Shown piece by piece: positions 6,334-45,797 of a stretch of 64,000 nt of DNA (positions are counted from its first letter, which is position 1; every line of letters starts with the position of its first letter). A program made the position numbers and the translations under genes. The DNA comes from a candidate division WOR-1 bacterium RIFOXYB2_FULL_46_45 (GTDB taxonomy: Bacteria; Margulisbacteria; WOR-1; XYC2-FULL-46-14). The stretch lies in contig MEUE01000001.1 in NCBI GenBank assembly GCA_001771585.1, positions 496,001 through 560,000 of the forward strand, written 5' to 3'. The notes beneath the pieces are model-generated. The model was not told the DNA's origin and searched no databases. It worked only from the letters and a program-made list of their open reading frames with translations.

Positions 6334-7107
6334 TCAAACTCCTAAAAAAGCTTCCAACATTTCTTGATAAGTTTGAAACCTCTGCTCTCTGTCTCTCATT
6401 GTCATCTTGTATAACATATCATAAAAAGGGTTATTGGCAGCTGCCTTTGCCTCCCTAATTTTTTCCGCATCTTTAAATCTTATCTTTTTTGTCAGAACAT
6501 CAATTATTTTCGTGTCATCAAACGCAATTTCTCCGGAAACCGCAAAGAAAAGTAAAAGCCCCAAAGAATATTGGTCGGACCTCCAGTCAAGTTCCAATCT
6601 TTTTATTTGCTCCGGAGAAACATATTCAGGACTACCTAAGACCCCTCCATCACTATTTTGAGCCAAGGCAATCCCAAAGTCAAAAACAACCGGACGATCA
6701 CTATCCTCTTTTCTTAAAAAGATATTTTCCGGTTTTAGGTCGCGGTGAACAATTCCCGCGTCCCAAACATTTTTCAGACCACTGATAAGCCCAAGGCCAA
6801 GCCGAGCCGCCTCTTTTTCCAAAATAGGCCCTTTTTCCCATATGATTGCACAAAGGTCTTTTCCTTCCAAATATTCCATAGTTAAAAACGGCAATTCCCC
6901 AAGTAGCGGACAAAAGTTAGCCGCCCCTTGAGAATACTCCTTAACAACATTTTCATGAGGAGCAATCCTCCGCATTGCCTCAAATTCCAGATCAACTCCC
7001 CTTCCCACCTTTAGCGCCACAGGATCAGCTCCCGGTCTTTTTAATTTATAAACCCAGGCCATCCCACCATTTCCAATTAATTCTAATTGCGCTCTGTTTA
7101 TCGTCAT
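6334..7107 (-). CDS. Ser/Thr protein kinase (Hanks-type, soluble)
   Basis: A 257-residue protein consisting only of a kinase domain. The Gly-rich loop is GNGGMAWV (residues 12-19), the ATP lysine is in ALK (33), the catalytic loop is HRDLKPEN (121-128), the Mg loop is DFG (143-145) and the activation/APE region is GSPEYVSPEQ. All key residues are present, so it should be active. There is no transmembrane or sensor domain, unlike most PknB-type kinases. A promoter of the TGAAATTT-N12-NNCGATA type lies 28-55 nt upstream, and a GGGAGAA ribosome site precedes the ATG. A PP2C phosphatase at 44937-45797 has the same promoter type and may oppose it (inference). Confidence 0.9.
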   Translation of the reverse strand: MTINRAQLELIGNGGMAWVYKLKRPGADPVALKVGRGVDLEFEAMRRIAPHENVVKEYSQGAANFCPLLGELPFLTMEYLEGKDLCAIIWEKGPILEKEAARLGLGLISGLKNVWDAGIVHRDLKPENIFLRKEDSDRPVVFDFGIALAQNSDGGVLGSPEYVSPEQIKRLELDWRSDQYSLGLLLFFAVSGEIAFDDTKIIDVLTKKIRFKDAEKIREAKAAANNPFYDMLYKMTMRDREQRFQTYQEMLEAFLGV

Positions 7108-11752: not shown

Positions 11753-12796
11753 ATGAGTGAAAAAATACCTGCTTTTGGAGATTTGCATCTAACTTCAAGA
11801 CAACCGTTAAGTAAAGACGCGAGTGGAATTATCCCCTATGAAAAGGGGCCCGCTCAACCCGCTCACATAGAAGACGCGCAAAGAACGATGGCCAGAGCTC
11901 AAGAACTGCTAAAATCCGATGATCTTTCTTTTGAAAAGAAGGAAAAACTTGAGGCAGCAATCGATGATCTTGATCTGGCCGTAAAATATGACGCCGACGA
12001 CGAATTTGAGGTGGGCAATAAAGCACGGGCAGTAAGAACTTTGATGAGGGCAATGTCCGGAGAAAAAGACCTTAAAGAAGCCAAGGCGGAAAAGGCCTCA
12101 AAAAGAACTCTGACTAAAGCCAAAAGGCTCGTTACCCGTTATGAAAAAGCCATTAAAAAAGACGACTCAAGCATCCCTTCCGATGTCCATATCAAAATGA
12201 CAGCATTAAAAACAGCCTTAAGGGAAGGGAAGGAAAACGAACTAAAAAGCGCTACTGCAAACTATGTTGATTCGGTAAAGCTTGCCAAGGCGTGGAGAGG
12301 CGTAAAATCAGGACCGGTTCTTGCCACAGCGCCAAAAACAAAAGGATCGAATACCGGGGAAATTGCCGATATTGGTTCGCTGGCAAGCCGGGTAAAATCA
12401 CCGGAAGAAGTGTCAACTGTTTTCAAAAAATCCGAAATATTTACTTCCTCCAAAAAAGAAATTCCCAAAGAAATTACACTTGGACAGGTAAAGATTCTTA
12501 TGCCTACTCCGCTGGAAGAGGCCGAAGCGCTTCCGGAAAAAATCCAGGAAGTATTGAATAATCTGGCCCCGAAATTAAGTTCAAAACTTGGGGATAAGGC
12601 CTACGGCAAAATAACCTTGCGAATCGATATTTCTAAAAGCGGTGAGGCGCGGGTTTCCGTGTCAAATGTTCAGGAAGCGGGCGGAACGGCAAGGGATATT
12701 ACCGCCGCGCTAATCGCAATAAATCTTGAGAAAAGCATTAAATTTGTTCCAAGAAAAGAACCTTCTATAATTGAATTTGACGTTGAATTAAGGTAG
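11753..12796 (+). CDS. Unrecognised protein of the sigma28-like regulon; helical N-terminus, possible TonB/AgmX-like C-terminus
   Basis: A 347-residue protein I do not recognise. There is no signal peptide. Residues 35-190 are strongly helical and charged (HIEDAQRTMARAQELLKSDD, KEKLEAAIDDLDLAVKYDAD), suggesting a coiled or tetratricopeptide-like region. Residues 190-250 look like a flexible linker. The last 70 residues start GKITLRIDISKSGEARVSV and end IIEFDVELR. This alternation of strands resembles a TonB C-terminal or AgmX-like domain, but that is a weak guess. A GGAGG site precedes the ATG. It has two sigma28-like promoters and is convergent with the CYY-family gene, overlapping it by 9 nt. 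Confidence 0.6.
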   Translation: MSEKIPAFGDLHLTSRQPLSKDASGIIPYEKGPAQPAHIEDAQRTMARAQELLKSDDLSFEKKEKLEAAIDDLDLAVKYDADDEFEVGNKARAVRTLMRAMSGEKDLKEAKAEKASKRTLTKAKRLVTRYEKAIKKDDSSIPSDVHIKMTALKTALREGKENELKSATANYVDSVKLAKAWRGVKSGPVLATAPKTKGSNTGEIADIGSLASRVKSPEEVSTVFKKSEIFTSSKKEIPKEITLGQVKILMPTPLEEAEALPEKIQEVLNNLAPKLSSKLGDKAYGKITLRIDISKSGEARVSVSNVQEAGGTARDITAALIAINLEKSIKFVPRKEPSIIEFDVELR

Positions 12797-13852
12797 CGGC
12801 TGGTAAGTATGGATAAGGATTCCCGGGGAGGGGATCCTTGACTGTTCCTGCTCTCTGCCTCTTGTGGCAAGATGGACAACCAGGTCTCCTTCCAAAAAAT
12901 CGGGCCCCAACCTAAGTATAAAATTACGGTCCTCCCAACCCAGCTCTTTTACCGTTTTATCAAACAGCATGGTTGGCAAATGGCGGTCTCCATCTAAAAT
13001 AACCACAAAAACCTTCGCGTCGGGATTAAAATACTTAATAAACGCGGGCAATCTGCCCCTATGCATATGGGCAGATCCGTGCTCCACAACCACTACGTTT
13101 CTTTTTTTGTCGTTTACCTTCTGTTGTATGCTCATCGCAGCATAAATTTCTCTCATCGTGTCAAAATAACCGTCCGGCAACCGACCGGCTTCGGCTTTTT
13201 CTTGTTCCGACATATTTGGCGCGATAACCCCATAACATTTTTTTCTCATAATAGGCGGTCGAAGGTTCATAAAATCTATTTCTTTTTGGGTGGTCAGCGT
13301 CGCGTCTTTCGACAACGAGTAGGCCGGCATGAAATTGTACCCCAATAAATAATAGTCCCATAACTCCTGGGCGCTAATCTCATCGTTGTTTTTGCTGTCG
13401 TCTTCAATCCCAAAGAGGGTCACTCCCTTTATTTTTTTTAAAATTTCGTTAACCAAAAAAACTTGTCCCGGCAACCCATGCCCAGTACCTATCAGGAGAA
13501 AAATGTCTTGATTTTTAGGGGTGGAATCAATTTCTCTTTGGATCGCGCCGACTATTCCTGAATTTCGGCGGGTTGCCCCGCGTTTAAGCCAGGTTATATT
13601 CGCGCTCGCCAGAAAATCCTTTAGCTCTGTCCCGTAAACCGGCAGCCTTTTGGAGTGAGGAGAAACTTTTTCTTGGACTTTTTTAAAAAACTCGTCAATT
13701 TCTTCTTTTTTGGTTAATGGTTTAGGGCGCTTCGGAGCGCAGGTTTCTTTCCCTTTACAATTTTTTTGCTCCTTCGGCCACATATAATAATCGACAGGAT
13801 ACCCTTGCGGCGGTTTCTGGCGGTAATAGCATTTTTCCATCCCTTCTCCCAT
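12788..13852 (-). CDS. Unrecognised CYY/CKGKxTC protein, paralogue A (possible ChaN/Tiki/EreA-like fold)
   Basis: A 354-residue cytoplasmic protein of no family I can name. The N-terminus has MGEGMEKCYYR and NCKGKETCAP, three cysteines that could bind metal. The core has AIQREIDS, then LIGTGHGLPGQVFLVNE near residue 135, SMREI/TMREI-type YFDTMREIYAAM near 230, and VVVVEHGSAHMHRGRLPAFI near 260, ending with DLVVHL. The two GxxH...GQ and HGxAHxxRGRLPxxI blocks recall ChaN/Tiki/TraB and erythromycin-esterase folds (inference). It is 25-35% identical by eye to the protein at 14612-15643. The sigma28-like -10 ends 6 nt before the ATG, so the mRNA is leaderless. Confidence 0.65.
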   Translation of the reverse strand: MGEGMEKCYYRQKPPQGYPVDYYMWPKEQKNCKGKETCAPKRPKPLTKKEEIDEFFKKVQEKVSPHSKRLPVYGTELKDFLASANITWLKRGATRRNSGIVGAIQREIDSTPKNQDIFLLIGTGHGLPGQVFLVNEILKKIKGVTLFGIEDDSKNNDEISAQELWDYYLLGYNFMPAYSLSKDATLTTQKEIDFMNLRPPIMRKKCYGVIAPNMSEQEKAEAGRLPDGYFDTMREIYAAMSIQQKVNDKKRNVVVVEHGSAHMHRGRLPAFIKYFNPDAKVFVVILDGDRHLPTMLFDKTVKELGWEDRNFILRLGPDFLEGDLVVHLATRGREQEQSRIPSPGILIHTYQPLP

Positions 13853-13858
13853 GTATTC

Positions 13859-13886
13859 TTATCCGCAATAAAAACAAAAAATTTCA
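13859..13886 (-). promoter_or_regulatory. Sigma28-like promoter of CYY paralogue A
   Basis: Reverse strand TGAAATTT (13879-13886), 12 nt, GCGGATAA (13859-13866), then ATG after 6 nt. The -35 block lies back to back with that of the divergent 13986 gene. Confidence 0.65.
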
Positions 13887-13887
13887 C

Positions 13888-13915
13888 GCAAGTTTCTGGT
13901 TAGATGATTCGATAA
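13888..13915 (+). promoter_or_regulatory. Sigma28-like promoter of the repeat-protein gene
   Basis: GCAAGTTT (13888-13895), 12 nt, TTCGATAA (13908-13915). The two -35 blocks of this divergent pair are separated by one base, so a single bound regulator could affect both genes. Confidence 0.65.
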
Positions 13916-13933
13916 TATAGATGGAAGACAAGA

Positions 13934-13954
13934 GCCCCTCGACAAGCTCGGGGC
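13934..13954. repeat. GC-rich imperfect palindrome in the leader of the 13986 gene
   Basis: GCCCCTCGA and GCTCGGGGC face each other across three bases, with 5 bp of perfect outer stem. It lies between the promoter and the AGAGGAGGAG ribosome site. Short GC-rich palindromes of this type are common dispersed repeats in bacteria; there is no T-run after it. Confidence 0.5.
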
Positions 13955-13985
13955 CAAAGACACTTCCGTAAGAGGAGGAGACAAC

Positions 13986-14573
13986 ATGTCTGACTGTTTT
14001 AAAATCGGTAGTTATTCATTGTGCGGATTAAACCCCTTCCGTGATTTATGGAGAAAAGAAGGGAACAAAAGCGTTAGAGTATCAGATGGCTTAACCACGG
14101 AACCATTAAAAGAAGCATCCCCTCAAAAATCAACAAAACCCAATGCAACAATCGAAGACTCTTCTGATTGGAAAGACTTAGGCGCAGGAAGAAAAGAACA
14201 CAAAACAATGGGATGGATAACCGAACCGTTGGGACCATACTCTGAACCATTAAAAGAATCCTCCCCCCAAAAATCAGCAAAACCCAATACAAAAGTCACT
14301 CCGCAAAAAGATGAATGGAGAACAGAAGGAAACAAACGCATAAGACTCTCTGACGGCTTGACCGTTGAGCCTCTGGAAGAAGAAGAAAAAACAAATACAT
14401 ATGATTTTAATTTTGAACCAGATGTGGTGGAATTATCTGAAAAATCAACAAAACCCAATGCAACAATCGAAGACTCTTCCGATTGGAAAGACTTAGGCCA
14501 AGGAAAAAAACAACATAAAACAATGGGATGGATAACCGAACCGCTGGGACCATACTCTGAACCATTAAAATAA
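13986..14573 (+). CDS. Unrecognised protein of internal repeats (WKDLG.../TEPL units)
   Basis: A 195-residue hydrophilic protein. After about 22 residues (SDCFKIGSYSLCGLNPFRD, two Cys) it consists of four alternating units. Type 1 is WRxEGNKxxRxSDGLTxEPL; type 2 is DWKDLGxGxKxHKTMGWITEP followed by LGPYSEPLK. The units are joined by SPQKSxKPN linkers. The encoded DNA repeat is 129 bp, nearly identical at 14128-14256 and 14442-14570. There is no signal peptide or membrane segment. It sits between, and divergent or convergent to, the two CYY paralogues, with a sigma28-like promoter and a strong AGGAGGAG ribosome site. Repeated short motifs in a disordered chain suggest a multivalent binding or phospho-acceptor protein, which is inference. 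Confidence 0.7.
   Translation: MSDCFKIGSYSLCGLNPFRDLWRKEGNKSVRVSDGLTTEPLKEASPQKSTKPNATIEDSSDWKDLGAGRKEHKTMGWITEPLGPYSEPLKESSPQKSAKPNTKVTPQKDEWRTEGNKRIRLSDGLTVEPLEEEEKTNTYDFNFEPDVVELSEKSTKPNATIEDSSDWKDLGQGKKQHKTMGWITEPLGPYSEPLK
14128..14256 (+). repeat. 129-bp intragenic direct repeat, first copy
   Basis: It encodes KSTKPNATIEDSSDWKDLG... to ...SEPLK in the 13986 gene and is almost identical to 14442-14570 (offset 314 bp). The few base differences suggest a recent duplication or ongoing homogenisation. Confidence 0.85.
14442..14570 (+). repeat. 129-bp intragenic direct repeat, second copy
   Basis: Second copy of the 14128-14256 repeat, ending exactly at the last codon of the 13986 gene. Confidence 0.85.
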
Positions 14574-14611
14574 GTTATAGAATTTCCACAGAACAAAACC
14601 CTGGAAAGTTA

Positions 14612-15643
14612 TTAATACGGATCGACAATATGTGATATGACAGGGTCTCCCTCTCTCGAAATCCCTTCCATTCTTACCCTGTCTCCGGTCGGCAGATGGA
14701 CAACATAATCAGCTTCCCTATATCCGGACAACTTTAATAAAAATAGATCATTAAGCTTCCCTTGGTCCTTTAGTGCCCGGTCAAAAGCGTACGCATCAAC
14801 ATAAGTCCCGCCGTTAAAAACAAACGCAACTACTTTTGCACGCGGATCTTTCTTCCTTATAAGATAAGGCAGTCGTTGTTTGTCCGCATGGGTCGCGCCC
14901 CAGCGCCAAAGCACCACATTCTTTCTATCCGAGAACATTCTTGCATAGGTGCTGTCAACCGCAAAAATTTCACGCATAGAATAGGAGTGCTTTTCCCCCA
15001 GATCCCTTTCAACCCGGTCCACCTTTGTCCTTTCAACATCAGAGAGGACAACATTGTAACAATTATTATGGGCCAATTTAAAAGTATTAAATTGTTCTTC
15101 ATATTCCCCTTTGGACTCATGCAAATAACTTTGCTTGTAGTTTTTATCGACAGAAAAAGGGAAATACCCGGTAATCAGGGCGTCGTCTATCAGCAACTGA
15201 AGGTCTACATTGTTCTCATCACTCCGTCCAAATTCAAGAGACAAATGAGTTGTTCCTGTTATTTTGCAACCATCTTTACCCTGTGAAATTAGTTCGTTAA
15301 AAAATGCGGTTTGTCCTTCAACCAAATGGGAAACACCAAAAATTATGTGGACATTTTGTTTTGATGATGAAGAATCTATCTCTCTTTGTATGGCGGCATA
15401 AACCACCCCTGCCCCCTCTTTTAAGTCCAACCTTCTCATCCATTGCGGTATGTTTTTTTCTTTCTTAGGGATTCTTTTAAAACTGCCTCTTCTGTTCGCC
15501 GTTTTGGAATTTAATTCGTCTTTGTTTTCTACTGTCTTAGGGATGTAGGGAGAGCAAGTCCCCTTCCCTTTGCACTCTTTTTGATGATTAGGCCAAAGTA
15601 GCCAGGGTTCCTTTCTGTAATAACACTGCGTTACTTCTCCCAT
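14612..15643 (-). CDS. Unrecognised CYY/CKGKxTC protein, paralogue B
   Basis: A 343-residue paralogue of the protein at 12788-13852. Shared landmarks in the same order are MGExxxCYYR, ECKGKGTCSP, YAAIQREIDS, FGVSHLVEGQTAFFNE, SYSMREIFAVDS, VVLWRWGATHADKQRLPYLI and DYVVHL. Conservation of GxxHxxxGQ and of H followed by R/QRLPxxI suggests catalytic or binding roles for these residues. There is no signal peptide. The promoter is the best match in the window (TGAAATTT-N12-GCCGATAA) and its -10 ends 6 nt before the ATG. The pair flanks the repeat protein gene at 13986, which points to joint function. Confidence 0.65.
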   Translation of the reverse strand: MGEVTQCYYRKEPWLLWPNHQKECKGKGTCSPYIPKTVENKDELNSKTANRRGSFKRIPKKEKNIPQWMRRLDLKEGAGVVYAAIQREIDSSSSKQNVHIIFGVSHLVEGQTAFFNELISQGKDGCKITGTTHLSLEFGRSDENNVDLQLLIDDALITGYFPFSVDKNYKQSYLHESKGEYEEQFNTFKLAHNNCYNVVLSDVERTKVDRVERDLGEKHSYSMREIFAVDSTYARMFSDRKNVVLWRWGATHADKQRLPYLIRKKDPRAKVVAFVFNGGTYVDAYAFDRALKDQGKLNDLFLLKLSGYREADYVVHLPTGDRVRMEGISREGDPVISHIVDPY

Positions 15644-44092: not shown

Positions 44093-44947
44093 ATGAAAAA
44101 GATTCTACTTGGCGCCCACATGTCAATCGCCGGCGGGGTGGACAAAGCGATTGATCGCGGTGAATCAATCGGCTGCAAAACCATTCAGATCTTTGTCAAA
44201 AACAATAACCAATGGTTTGGAAAACCATTGCCTGAAGACGAGATTGAAAGATTTAAAAAGCTACAAAAAGAGACCGGTATCTTGGTCTTTGCCCATACCG
44301 GCTATTTAGTAAATCTAGCTTCTCCCAAAGAAAATGTTTACGAAAATTCGATAAAATCAATGCTTGATGAATTGGAACGGGCAGAAAAACTGGGAATTCC
44401 ATTTATTGTCCTCCATCCCGGTTCATCTCTTGATACTCCCAAAGAAGAAGGGATCAAAAAGATCGCAAGGACTATCAACGGATTATTTGAACGGATAAAC
44501 GGATATAAAACAAAAATCGCGCTGGAGACGACCGCAGGGCAGGGATCGAGTGTTGGCAGCAAATTTTCGGAGATTGAAGAGATAATAAGACTGGTTGACG
44601 ATAAGAAAAGAATCGGCGTCTGTTTTGACACCTGCCACTCTTTTGCCGCCGGATACGACATTAAGACCAAAGAGGGTTATAAAAATACCTGGAAAGAGTT
44701 TGACCGCGAAATCGGAATAGATAAGCTGCTAGCCTTTCATATTAACGACAGTAAAAAGGGCTTGAATTCGCATCTTGACCGCCACGAGCATATCGGAAAG
44801 GGAGAACTTGGTTTAGAACCATTCAGGATGATCTTAAATGACAAGAGATTCGATAATATCCCAATGTGCCTGGAAACACCCAAGGGGCCGGAGCTGGAAG
44901 AAGATATAATCAATCTTAAAATACTTGAATCACTGATTAAACCGTAA
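44093..44947 (+). CDS. nfo: Endonuclease IV
   Basis: Nfo cleaves DNA at abasic sites with a three-zinc centre. The 284-residue length is standard. Zinc ligands lie in the typical segments: GAHMSIAGG (residues 8-16), FAHTGYLVNLASP near 67, VLHPGSSL near 110, LETTAGQGSSVG near 145, CFDTCHSFAAGYD near 182, FHINDSKKGLNSHLDRHEHI near 222 and LETPKGPEL near 262. A GATAAT box at 44076-44081 lies 11 nt before the ATG. It overlaps the convergent PP2C gene by 11 nt. Confidence 0.97.
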   Translation: MKKILLGAHMSIAGGVDKAIDRGESIGCKTIQIFVKNNNQWFGKPLPEDEIERFKKLQKETGILVFAHTGYLVNLASPKENVYENSIKSMLDELERAEKLGIPFIVLHPGSSLDTPKEEGIKKIARTINGLFERINGYKTKIALETTAGQGSSVGSKFSEIEEIIRLVDDKKRIGVCFDTCHSFAAGYDIKTKEGYKNTWKEFDREIGIDKLLAFHINDSKKGLNSHLDRHEHIGKGELGLEPFRMILNDKRFDNIPMCLETPKGPELEEDIINLKILESLIKP

Positions 44948-45797
44948 CCAAAACAGCGGTCGCGTTATCCGCCCCAAACTTAACAACCGACTCATCGATT
45001 AAAGTGTCTACTTTTTGCTCGCCATTCATGGAACTATCGGATAGTATTTCTCTAATCCTGCCAGGCGGAAGTGCTATCCCGTCCGAACAGACCAAGAATC
45101 CGTCTCCGGGCCTGGTGTCAATTTCAAAAACGGACAGATTGAAATCTTCTCCTTTTAAACAGCTTGTAACGGCTCCCGCGAATCTTCCCATTCCCTTTGA
45201 CCGCCTAATTCCGGCTTGCAAATTAAAAAGGTCTAACAGCATCGCAAAATCATACGGGGCTCGGGCATCTTCCAACCCCCGAACTTCTTCGCCAAGATTT
45301 CCTCCGCAAGCATTAACCATTGAAAACCAAGGAGAAAAATCTCTCATAAATGTAATGTGCGGGGAAGCCAATAAAGACAACTCACCTTCCCTTTGCAGAT
45401 ACACGGGGCTGTCCCCCGCGTGAAAAACTCTGGCGGTTCCTTTTTCAATCGAAAGGACTGAAATGGTTGTCGCGGCGTTTTGCAAAATGTTATCAGGATC
45501 GTCACCTTTAAACAGCTTATGGTTTTTTAGCGCCCAGTTCGCAACTTTTATCGCGTCATCCACTCCGATTAACCACTCTCTTTGTTGGCAATATTTGTCA
45601 ACAACCAAAGAAGAAGCTTTTTCTCCGTGGAAATGTCCCCCCATTCCGTCAGCAACAACAACCTCCCGCCCGCCTCTTAAGACGGCGAAACTATCCTGTT
45701 GACAATCCCTTCCGCCAATATGGCTCATGCCATATGTACCTCTATAGCCTCTTATTTTCCCGCTATTAGGAGCCAACACTTTTGTGTATGCAACCAT
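44937..45797 (-). CDS. PP2C-family Ser/Thr protein phosphatase
   Basis: A 286-residue phosphatase (PPM/PP2C). Metal-binding motifs are RDCQQDSFAV near residue 31, VVADGMGGHFHGEKAS near 50, VFHAGDSPVYL near 120, FLVCSDGIALPPGRI near 232 and DNATAVLVTV at the end. There is no membrane domain. It carries the TGAAATTT-N12-NNCGATAA promoter, with the -10 ending 7 nt before the ATG (leaderless). The same promoter type precedes the Ser/Thr kinase at 6334-7107, so the two probably form an opposing pair (inference). Confidence 0.92.
   Translation of the reverse strand: MVAYTKVLAPNSGKIRGYRGTYGMSHIGGRDCQQDSFAVLRGGREVVVADGMGGHFHGEKASSLVVDKYCQQREWLIGVDDAIKVANWALKNHKLFKGDDPDNILQNAATTISVLSIEKGTARVFHAGDSPVYLQREGELSLLASPHITFMRDFSPWFSMVNACGGNLGEEVRGLEDARAPYDFAMLLDLFNLQAGIRRSKGMGRFAGAVTSCLKGEDFNLSVFEIDTRPGDGFLVCSDGIALPPGRIREILSDSSMNGEQKVDTLIDESVVKFGADNATAVLVTV

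Follow-up and report, generated by a model that had tools for sequence, protein, structure and literature searches.

Results

Four Genes Under a Common Promoter Type

This study concerns an island of four genes, P1 to P4, in the genome of the candidate division WOR-1 bacterium RIFOXYB2_FULL_46_45, a member of the Margulisbacteria (1.70 Mb in 4 contigs, 99.5% complete). The window referred to throughout is the whole stretch of DNA analyzed, 64,000 nucleotides of contig MEUE01000001.1 (positions 496,001 to 560,000), and all four open reading frames (ORFs) are present in it at the coordinates listed in Table 1. P1 and P2 are convergent with a 9-base overlap, P2 and P3 are divergent, and P4 adjoins a pyrR-type gene. 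P2 and P4, the CYYR paralogs, align with 35% identity, and a search of their own genome with P4 retrieved P2 at E = 6.6e-35 with no other match, giving the family two members there. P3 contains long internal repeats, for example with 22 of 25 residues identical at an offset of 105. A preliminary description of this DNA had recognized both the paralogy and the repeats, and had rightly called the four proteins unrecognized: in Pfam, NCBIfam and PADLOC none of them reached the cut-off of a family, the single PADLOC match being a chance-level one of P3 to a Cas11 model (E 0.007). The TonB/AgmX-like end that it attributed to P1 found no family match, and a P1 profile gave no meaningful match to solved structures. 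The island is lower in GC content than the window (42.7% vs 46.3%), ranking it among the lowest 0.3% of 3.9 kb segments there.

The sigma28-like promoter that had been proposed as common to all four genes is indeed present before each. The pattern AARTTT-N14-CGATAW occurs 6 times in the window, where 0.13 occurrences are expected, namely twice before P1 and once each before P3, P4, a Ser/Thr kinase gene and a PP2C phosphatase gene; the site upstream of P2 is of the same type with CGGATAA. Genome-wide, 76 sites were found against 1 for a reversed control, and 45 of the 76 are followed within 220 bases by a ribosome-binding site, an ATG and an ORF of at least 100 codons, as compared with 8.5% of random positions. 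Two kinds of -35 element can be distinguished among the sites, TGAAATTT and GCAAGTTT. Site counts per genome range from 13 to 171 throughout the class to which this genome belongs vs 0 to 7 for the control, while the flagellated relatives G028 and G029 have only 3 to 4. Judged by these motif counts, this is a very large putative FliA-type promoter set, and the bacterium that carries it has no flagellin.

Table 1. Genes of the island, their promoter sites, and two further genes of the window with the same promoter type (positions in the window).
Feature	Positions	Strand	Description
P1	11753..12796	+	347 aa, no family assigned
P2	12788..13852	-	CYYR paralog, 354 aa; predicted TIKI/EreA-ChaN fold; H125, E150, R234, H262
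P3	13986..14573	+	Repeat protein, 195 aa
P4	14612..15643	-	CYYR paralog, 343 aa; predicted TIKI/EreA-ChaN fold; H106, E137, R224, H252
Ser/Thr kinase gene	6334..7107	-	Island's promoter type, site 7160-7135
PP2C phosphatase gene	44937..45797	-	Island's promoter type, site 45829-45804
Upstream sigma28-like site of P1	11604..11629	+	AAATTTCGACCCGATTTTGACGATAT
Proximal sigma28-like site of P1	11707..11732	+	AAGTTTCGATGAGGATGAACCGATAA
Sigma28-like site of P2	13856..13887	-	GTGAAATTTTTTGTTTTTATTGCGGATAAGAA
Sigma28-like site of P3	13890..13915	+	AAGTTTCTGGTTAGATGATTCGATAA
Sigma28-like site of P4	15650..15675	-	AAATTTCCCCGCTAGCCCGCCGATAA

Predicted Fold and Active Site of P2 and P4

AlphaFold models of the two paralogs were built from seven-sequence alignments, with a predicted local distance difference test score (pLDDT) of 73 and a predicted template modeling score (pTM) of 0.79 for P2, and a pLDDT of 63 and pTM of 0.73 for P4; the first 40 residues of both models are at low confidence. 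In the fold comparison, the 12 solved structures closest to the P2 model all belong to the TIKI/EreA-ChaN superfamily (Z scores: BcR136 15.1, BcR135 14.8, EreC 13.5, ChaN 12.9, RRSP 10.8, PMT 9.6), the next fold following at 7.1, and the P4 model was closest to HopBA1 (9.6), EreC (9.5), BcR135 (9.4) and ChaN (7.6), with the next at 6.6. A profile search against PDB sequences placed RRSP second and third at E 0.3, which is not significant alone.

The core of the active site follows the same pattern. The working residues of EreC are H50, E78, R261 and H289 with a helper E47, R261 and H289 being 28 residues apart (PMC7979712), and in RRSP they are H3902, E3930 and H4030 together with E3900 and R4001, the R4001-H4030 spacing being 29 (PMC6254334). 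The GxxH, Glu and second GxxH of the superfamily are present in P4 as G103, H106, E137, G249 and H252, and these residues, along with P259, G278, G295, F301 and L305, are the ones invariant across the eight members of the CYYR family. The position of R224 is Arg in seven of the eight members and Lys in one; the His-Glu spacing in the family is 24-32, and the Arg-His spacing is 28 in six members and 101 in the two that carry an insertion. Because both the predicted fold and the core active-site pattern match, we consider P2 and P4 to be a new divergent family of the TIKI/EreA-ChaN superfamily. The likeness to the histidine blocks of ChaN, Tiki and EreA drawn in the preliminary description is therefore supported by two models and their fold comparisons, but the combination of blocks is not new: His, Glu, Arg and His follow each other in the order and at the spacing seen in the TIKI/Ere active site, with one Glu missing. 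Its conserved motifs are likewise all present in P2 and P4, but CYYR, CKGKxTC and AIQREIDS are not invariant over the eight homologs, and the N-terminal trio of cysteines is missing from several members.

A Foldseek search of viral proteins with the P2 model gave one nameless match at E 6e-4, a viral protein named as TraB family ranking lower. The predicted viral proteins that weakly resemble the model are A0A481YWY5 and A0A1B1ISB2, one of them bearing the TraB name, and TIKI-fold proteins may be present in giant viruses.

A Predicted Flagellum-Derived Apparatus Without Filament or Motor

Marker searches covered 74 genomes of the phylum, 31 of them from the class of our genome and 43 from other classes. 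FHIPEP, the FlhA-type export gate, was matched in 66 of the 74 genomes and in 30 of the 31 of the class, whereas flagellin, FliG_C (the torque domain) and MotB_plug were each matched in none of the 31. The same searches for flagellin, FliG_C and MotB succeeded in flagellated relatives and control genomes. While an absence from a single incomplete genome of an uncultured organism is weak, 18 of the 31 genomes are of good quality, and given these the absence of each marker is strong. Only eight genomes, all from other classes (G028-G035), gave flagellin matches; each has at least two matches to FHIPEP, which would fit the coexistence of a true flagellum with a second system that has no filament. 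Further genomes (G003-G020, G023-G027) have no flagellin matches, yet most have matches to FliG_C and MotB_plug; since some other Margulisbacteria without flagellin keep these motor components, the losses differ between classes, and the apparatus of these genomes is unlike the one in the class of our genome.

Within our genome, FliG is a protein of 172 residues consisting of the N and middle domains only. Its gene lies at L103 (G000:C3:12000-19000) in a basal-body operon which includes FlgH, FliF and FliG, as well as FlgI, FlgJ, FlgB, FlgC, FliE and FliH as read from sequence, and in which a FliA-like sigma factor gene (G000:C3:15617-16282) is embedded between the flgJ-like and flgB-like genes. 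The export cluster contains FlhA, found by family search, and FliM/FliN-, FliO-R-, FlhB- and hook-type genes again assigned by reading. A literature search, for which most subscription papers were out of reach, located no paper dealing with export of the type III or flagellar kind in Margulisbacteria or Saganbacteria.

Proteins Downstream of the Promoter Sites

The proteins encoded downstream of the sites are for the most part unknown. The N-termini of 64 ATG-start regulon proteins are enriched in Ser, Gly, Pro, Thr, Asn and Arg, both when compared with 53 background proteins (p 8e-7 for the larger TGAAATTT group and p 0.005 for the GCAAGTTT group) and when compared with the remaining sequence of the same proteins (p 7e-7). 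The link to the Ser/Thr kinase and PP2C phosphatase genes drawn in the preliminary description survives in part: the promoter type does match, as it does in about 70 other genes, but no sign emerged that P3 is a phosphorylated scaffold.

Several individual members deserve mention. L045 and L099 encode response regulators with this promoter type which are paralogs of 62% identity and possible candidate regulators of the regulon. Proteins resembling adenylosuccinate synthetase (L064:2669-4147, + strand), 4-alpha-glucanotransferase (L073:658-2475, - strand) and a phosphoenolpyruvate (PEP)-utilizing enzyme (L032:1533-3026, + strand) carry extra N-terminal residues and could possibly be exported metabolic-type enzymes. 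In P3, the motif EPLGPYSEPLK occurs twice within the repeats, setting a Tyr between Glu-Pro units in a manner loosely like the repeats of tyrosine-phosphorylated effectors. A protein of 1,525 residues (L102:12964-17538, - strand) with a GCAAGTTT promoter is encoded within a cluster of small unknown genes; its assignment as an SseC translocon was rejected, since the match of the first 497 residues (E 1.2e-5) was below the family cut-off and was gone with the full 1,525 residues. A neighbor of L013 considered as an injectisome gatekeeper was likewise dropped, as Pfam gave no support.

Distribution and Genomic Setting of the CYYR Family

A profile built from P2 and P4 detected CYYR members in 7 of the 74 genomes, all in the class of our genome (7/31 vs 0/43 in other classes, Fisher p 0.0015). 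A genome collection yielded no relatives beyond those known from the same phylum, and a viral sequence collection yielded none. In five genomes, that of the window included, the CYYR gene adjoins the same UvrD-type helicase gene or pyrR-type and phosphomannomutase-type genes. A P1 homolog (35% identity) was found only in the nearest relative, G073, where it is also convergent with the CYYR gene; P3 has no relatives outside this genome among nine genomes of its order, and CYYR genes elsewhere often occur without P1 or P3. With P1 and P3 so restricted and the neighbors of the CYYR gene varying, the neighborhoods in related genomes do not bear out the possible four-gene system of the preliminary description: rather than a fixed set, the island is a site that recurs, holding a CYYR gene among neighbors that change.

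The promoter accompanies the family. Scored over the upstream 130 bases with a matrix built without the sites of the window, the four island genes and most homologs have a site, the fraction of scored segments that are as good being 0.003 to 0.024; sites lie upstream of CYYR homologs in 6 other genomes, those in G052 and G070 being weak. In G046, one CYYR gene (L017:661-1802, - strand) is broken by a frameshift and stands beside a longer intact paralog; the broken member has no site in the upstream 130 bases.

Discussion

The FliA regulon of an ordinary flagellum comprises late products, chiefly flagellin. Here the regulon is without flagellin but has dozens of unknown proteins. Read most simply, the organ serves as a machine for secretion and the regulon encodes its cargo. 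As the export machine has been kept, the flagellum lost and the island placed under a flagellar-type promoter, P2 and P4 are probably exported effector enzymes rather than parts of a defense system. We suggest, giving it an even chance, that P1 to P4 are accessory substrates exported by a type III system that derives from the flagellum and has no filament, with P2 and P4 acting as effectors in the form of TIKI hydrolases. The broader proposal, that throughout this class of Margulisbacteria the flagellum has been turned into a filament-less secretion machine whose FliA regulon consists of dozens of effectors, P2, P4 and the N-terminally extended metabolic-type enzymes among them, is more tentative, and we would put it somewhat short of even.

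In the mechanism that we envisage, the FliA-type sigma factor would transcribe the island, and its products would pass through the FlhA gate together with those of the other regulon genes, dozens of diverse soluble proteins and no flagellin, received by a type III apparatus without filament or motor. Their destination would be a neighboring cell or the medium, where P2 and P4 might cleave an ester or peptide bond of an extracellular target, the His/Glu/His set activating water and the conserved Arg stabilizing the intermediate. To judge from the modeled active site, hydrolysis is likely but not certain, and the two proteins would probably be metal-independent hydrolases, either peptidases or esterases.

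Several observations weigh against the export of P2 and P4 as active effectors, which is itself inferred. The sigma factor scores 143 bits against the FliA model, whose cut-off is 189.6, and FlgM was looked for and not found. The N-termini of P2 and P4 are not rich in Ser, Gly, Pro, Thr, Asn and Arg (0.30 and 0.33 vs 0.33 for the rest), and the CYYR family is patchy, occurring in only 7 of the 31 genomes of the class. The regulon also holds regulators, a kinase, a phosphatase, lipoproteins and metabolic-type enzymes, so that membership alone does not mean export and some members are not cargo. Foldseek alone, run against the PDB with both models, gave no match at E below 1e-3. Finally, the auxiliary Glu (E47 in EreC, E3900 in RRSP) is missing in the CYYR family, where the position two before H106 is V, T, F or L and a Glu is found only in L016, immediately before the His; catalysis could therefore be lost.

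Some of these points bear on a different explanation, in which P2 and P4 act inside the cell as TIKI-fold hydrolases or ligand binders, of the ChaN, TraB or Ere type, and the FliA-type regulon controls cell state with no export. The indistinct N-termini of the two proteins fit this, as does the presence in the regulon of the kinase and PP2C, an FHA-domain protein, response regulators and metabolic-type enzymes. Yet the sigma factor gene sits within a basal-body operon, the unusual N-terminal composition is common to many regulon proteins, and the class retains the export gate without flagellin or motor, for which a substrate set is to be expected; we consider the intracellular explanation rather unlikely, though a serious contender. 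The missing helper Glu leads to another, namely that P2 and P4 are inactive pseudo-enzymes that act as binding proteins or contribute structurally to the filament-less apparatus. PMT offers a precedent, having the superfamily fold without the 2His/2Glu set (PMC6254334). Against this explanation, the two His residues, the Glu and the Arg are retained at conserved spacing across all or almost all of the family, and we regard it as improbable. A new defense or signaling island pairing a TIKI-type enzyme with a phosphorylated scaffold, as the preliminary description had envisaged from the unknown genes of a small AT-rich island, is hardly credible, given that PADLOC found no match, that the four genes are not kept together in other genomes and that the promoter type belongs to a flagellar-type regulon and is common to about 70 unrelated genes.

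Comparison with Known Systems

Among enzymes of the superfamily, EreC, BcR135 and BcR136 are the best matches of the P2 model (Z 13-15) and show the same His, Glu, Arg and His with an Arg-His spacing of 28; they differ in possessing the helper Glu and in an identity of only 8-15%, and the comparison was drawn outside their minor lobe, a four-helix bundle. The heme-binding lipoprotein ChaN shares the fold, while P2 and P4 have no lipoprotein signal and stand in another genomic context. The Ras/Rap1-specific endopeptidase domain RRSP is similar in spacing (His-Glu 28 vs 24-32 in the CYYR family; Arg-His 29 vs 28), but belongs to a large multidomain toxin and has the helper Glu that the CYYR family lacks.

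For the apparatus, the nearest parallels are the non-flagellar type III systems of Myxococcales and the basal bodies of Buchnera, which derive from flagella, are missing motility parts and have been proposed to be protein exporters (PMC3459982). The predicted system of this class of Margulisbacteria is likewise a flagellum-derived machine without the parts needed for motility; it differs in that L-ring and rod genes, a FliA-type sigma factor and a large promoter set are kept, and in that a whole class is involved. If our proposal of export is true, this would be another independent case of a flagellum becoming a protein-delivery machine, and one kept across a whole class, in which a readable promoter motif names the probable substrates and opens the evolution of type III secretion out of flagella to direct testing. 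Should the more tentative class-wide proposal be true, type III effector delivery would have arisen here separately from the known injectisomes.

On the side of the substrates, the closest counterpart is the Pseudomonas syringae effector HopBA1 (PDB 5T09), the best match of the P4 model, which has the same fold in a small version and is delivered by a type III system. It is delivered by an injectisome, shares 15% identity over the aligned part and has no sequence link to the CYYR family that we could find. If P2 and P4 are exported effectors, a further TIKI-fold family would join HopBA1 among the type III effectors of this fold, which could help to explain how these uncultured bacteria, relatives of the Cyanobacteria, may interact with other cells.

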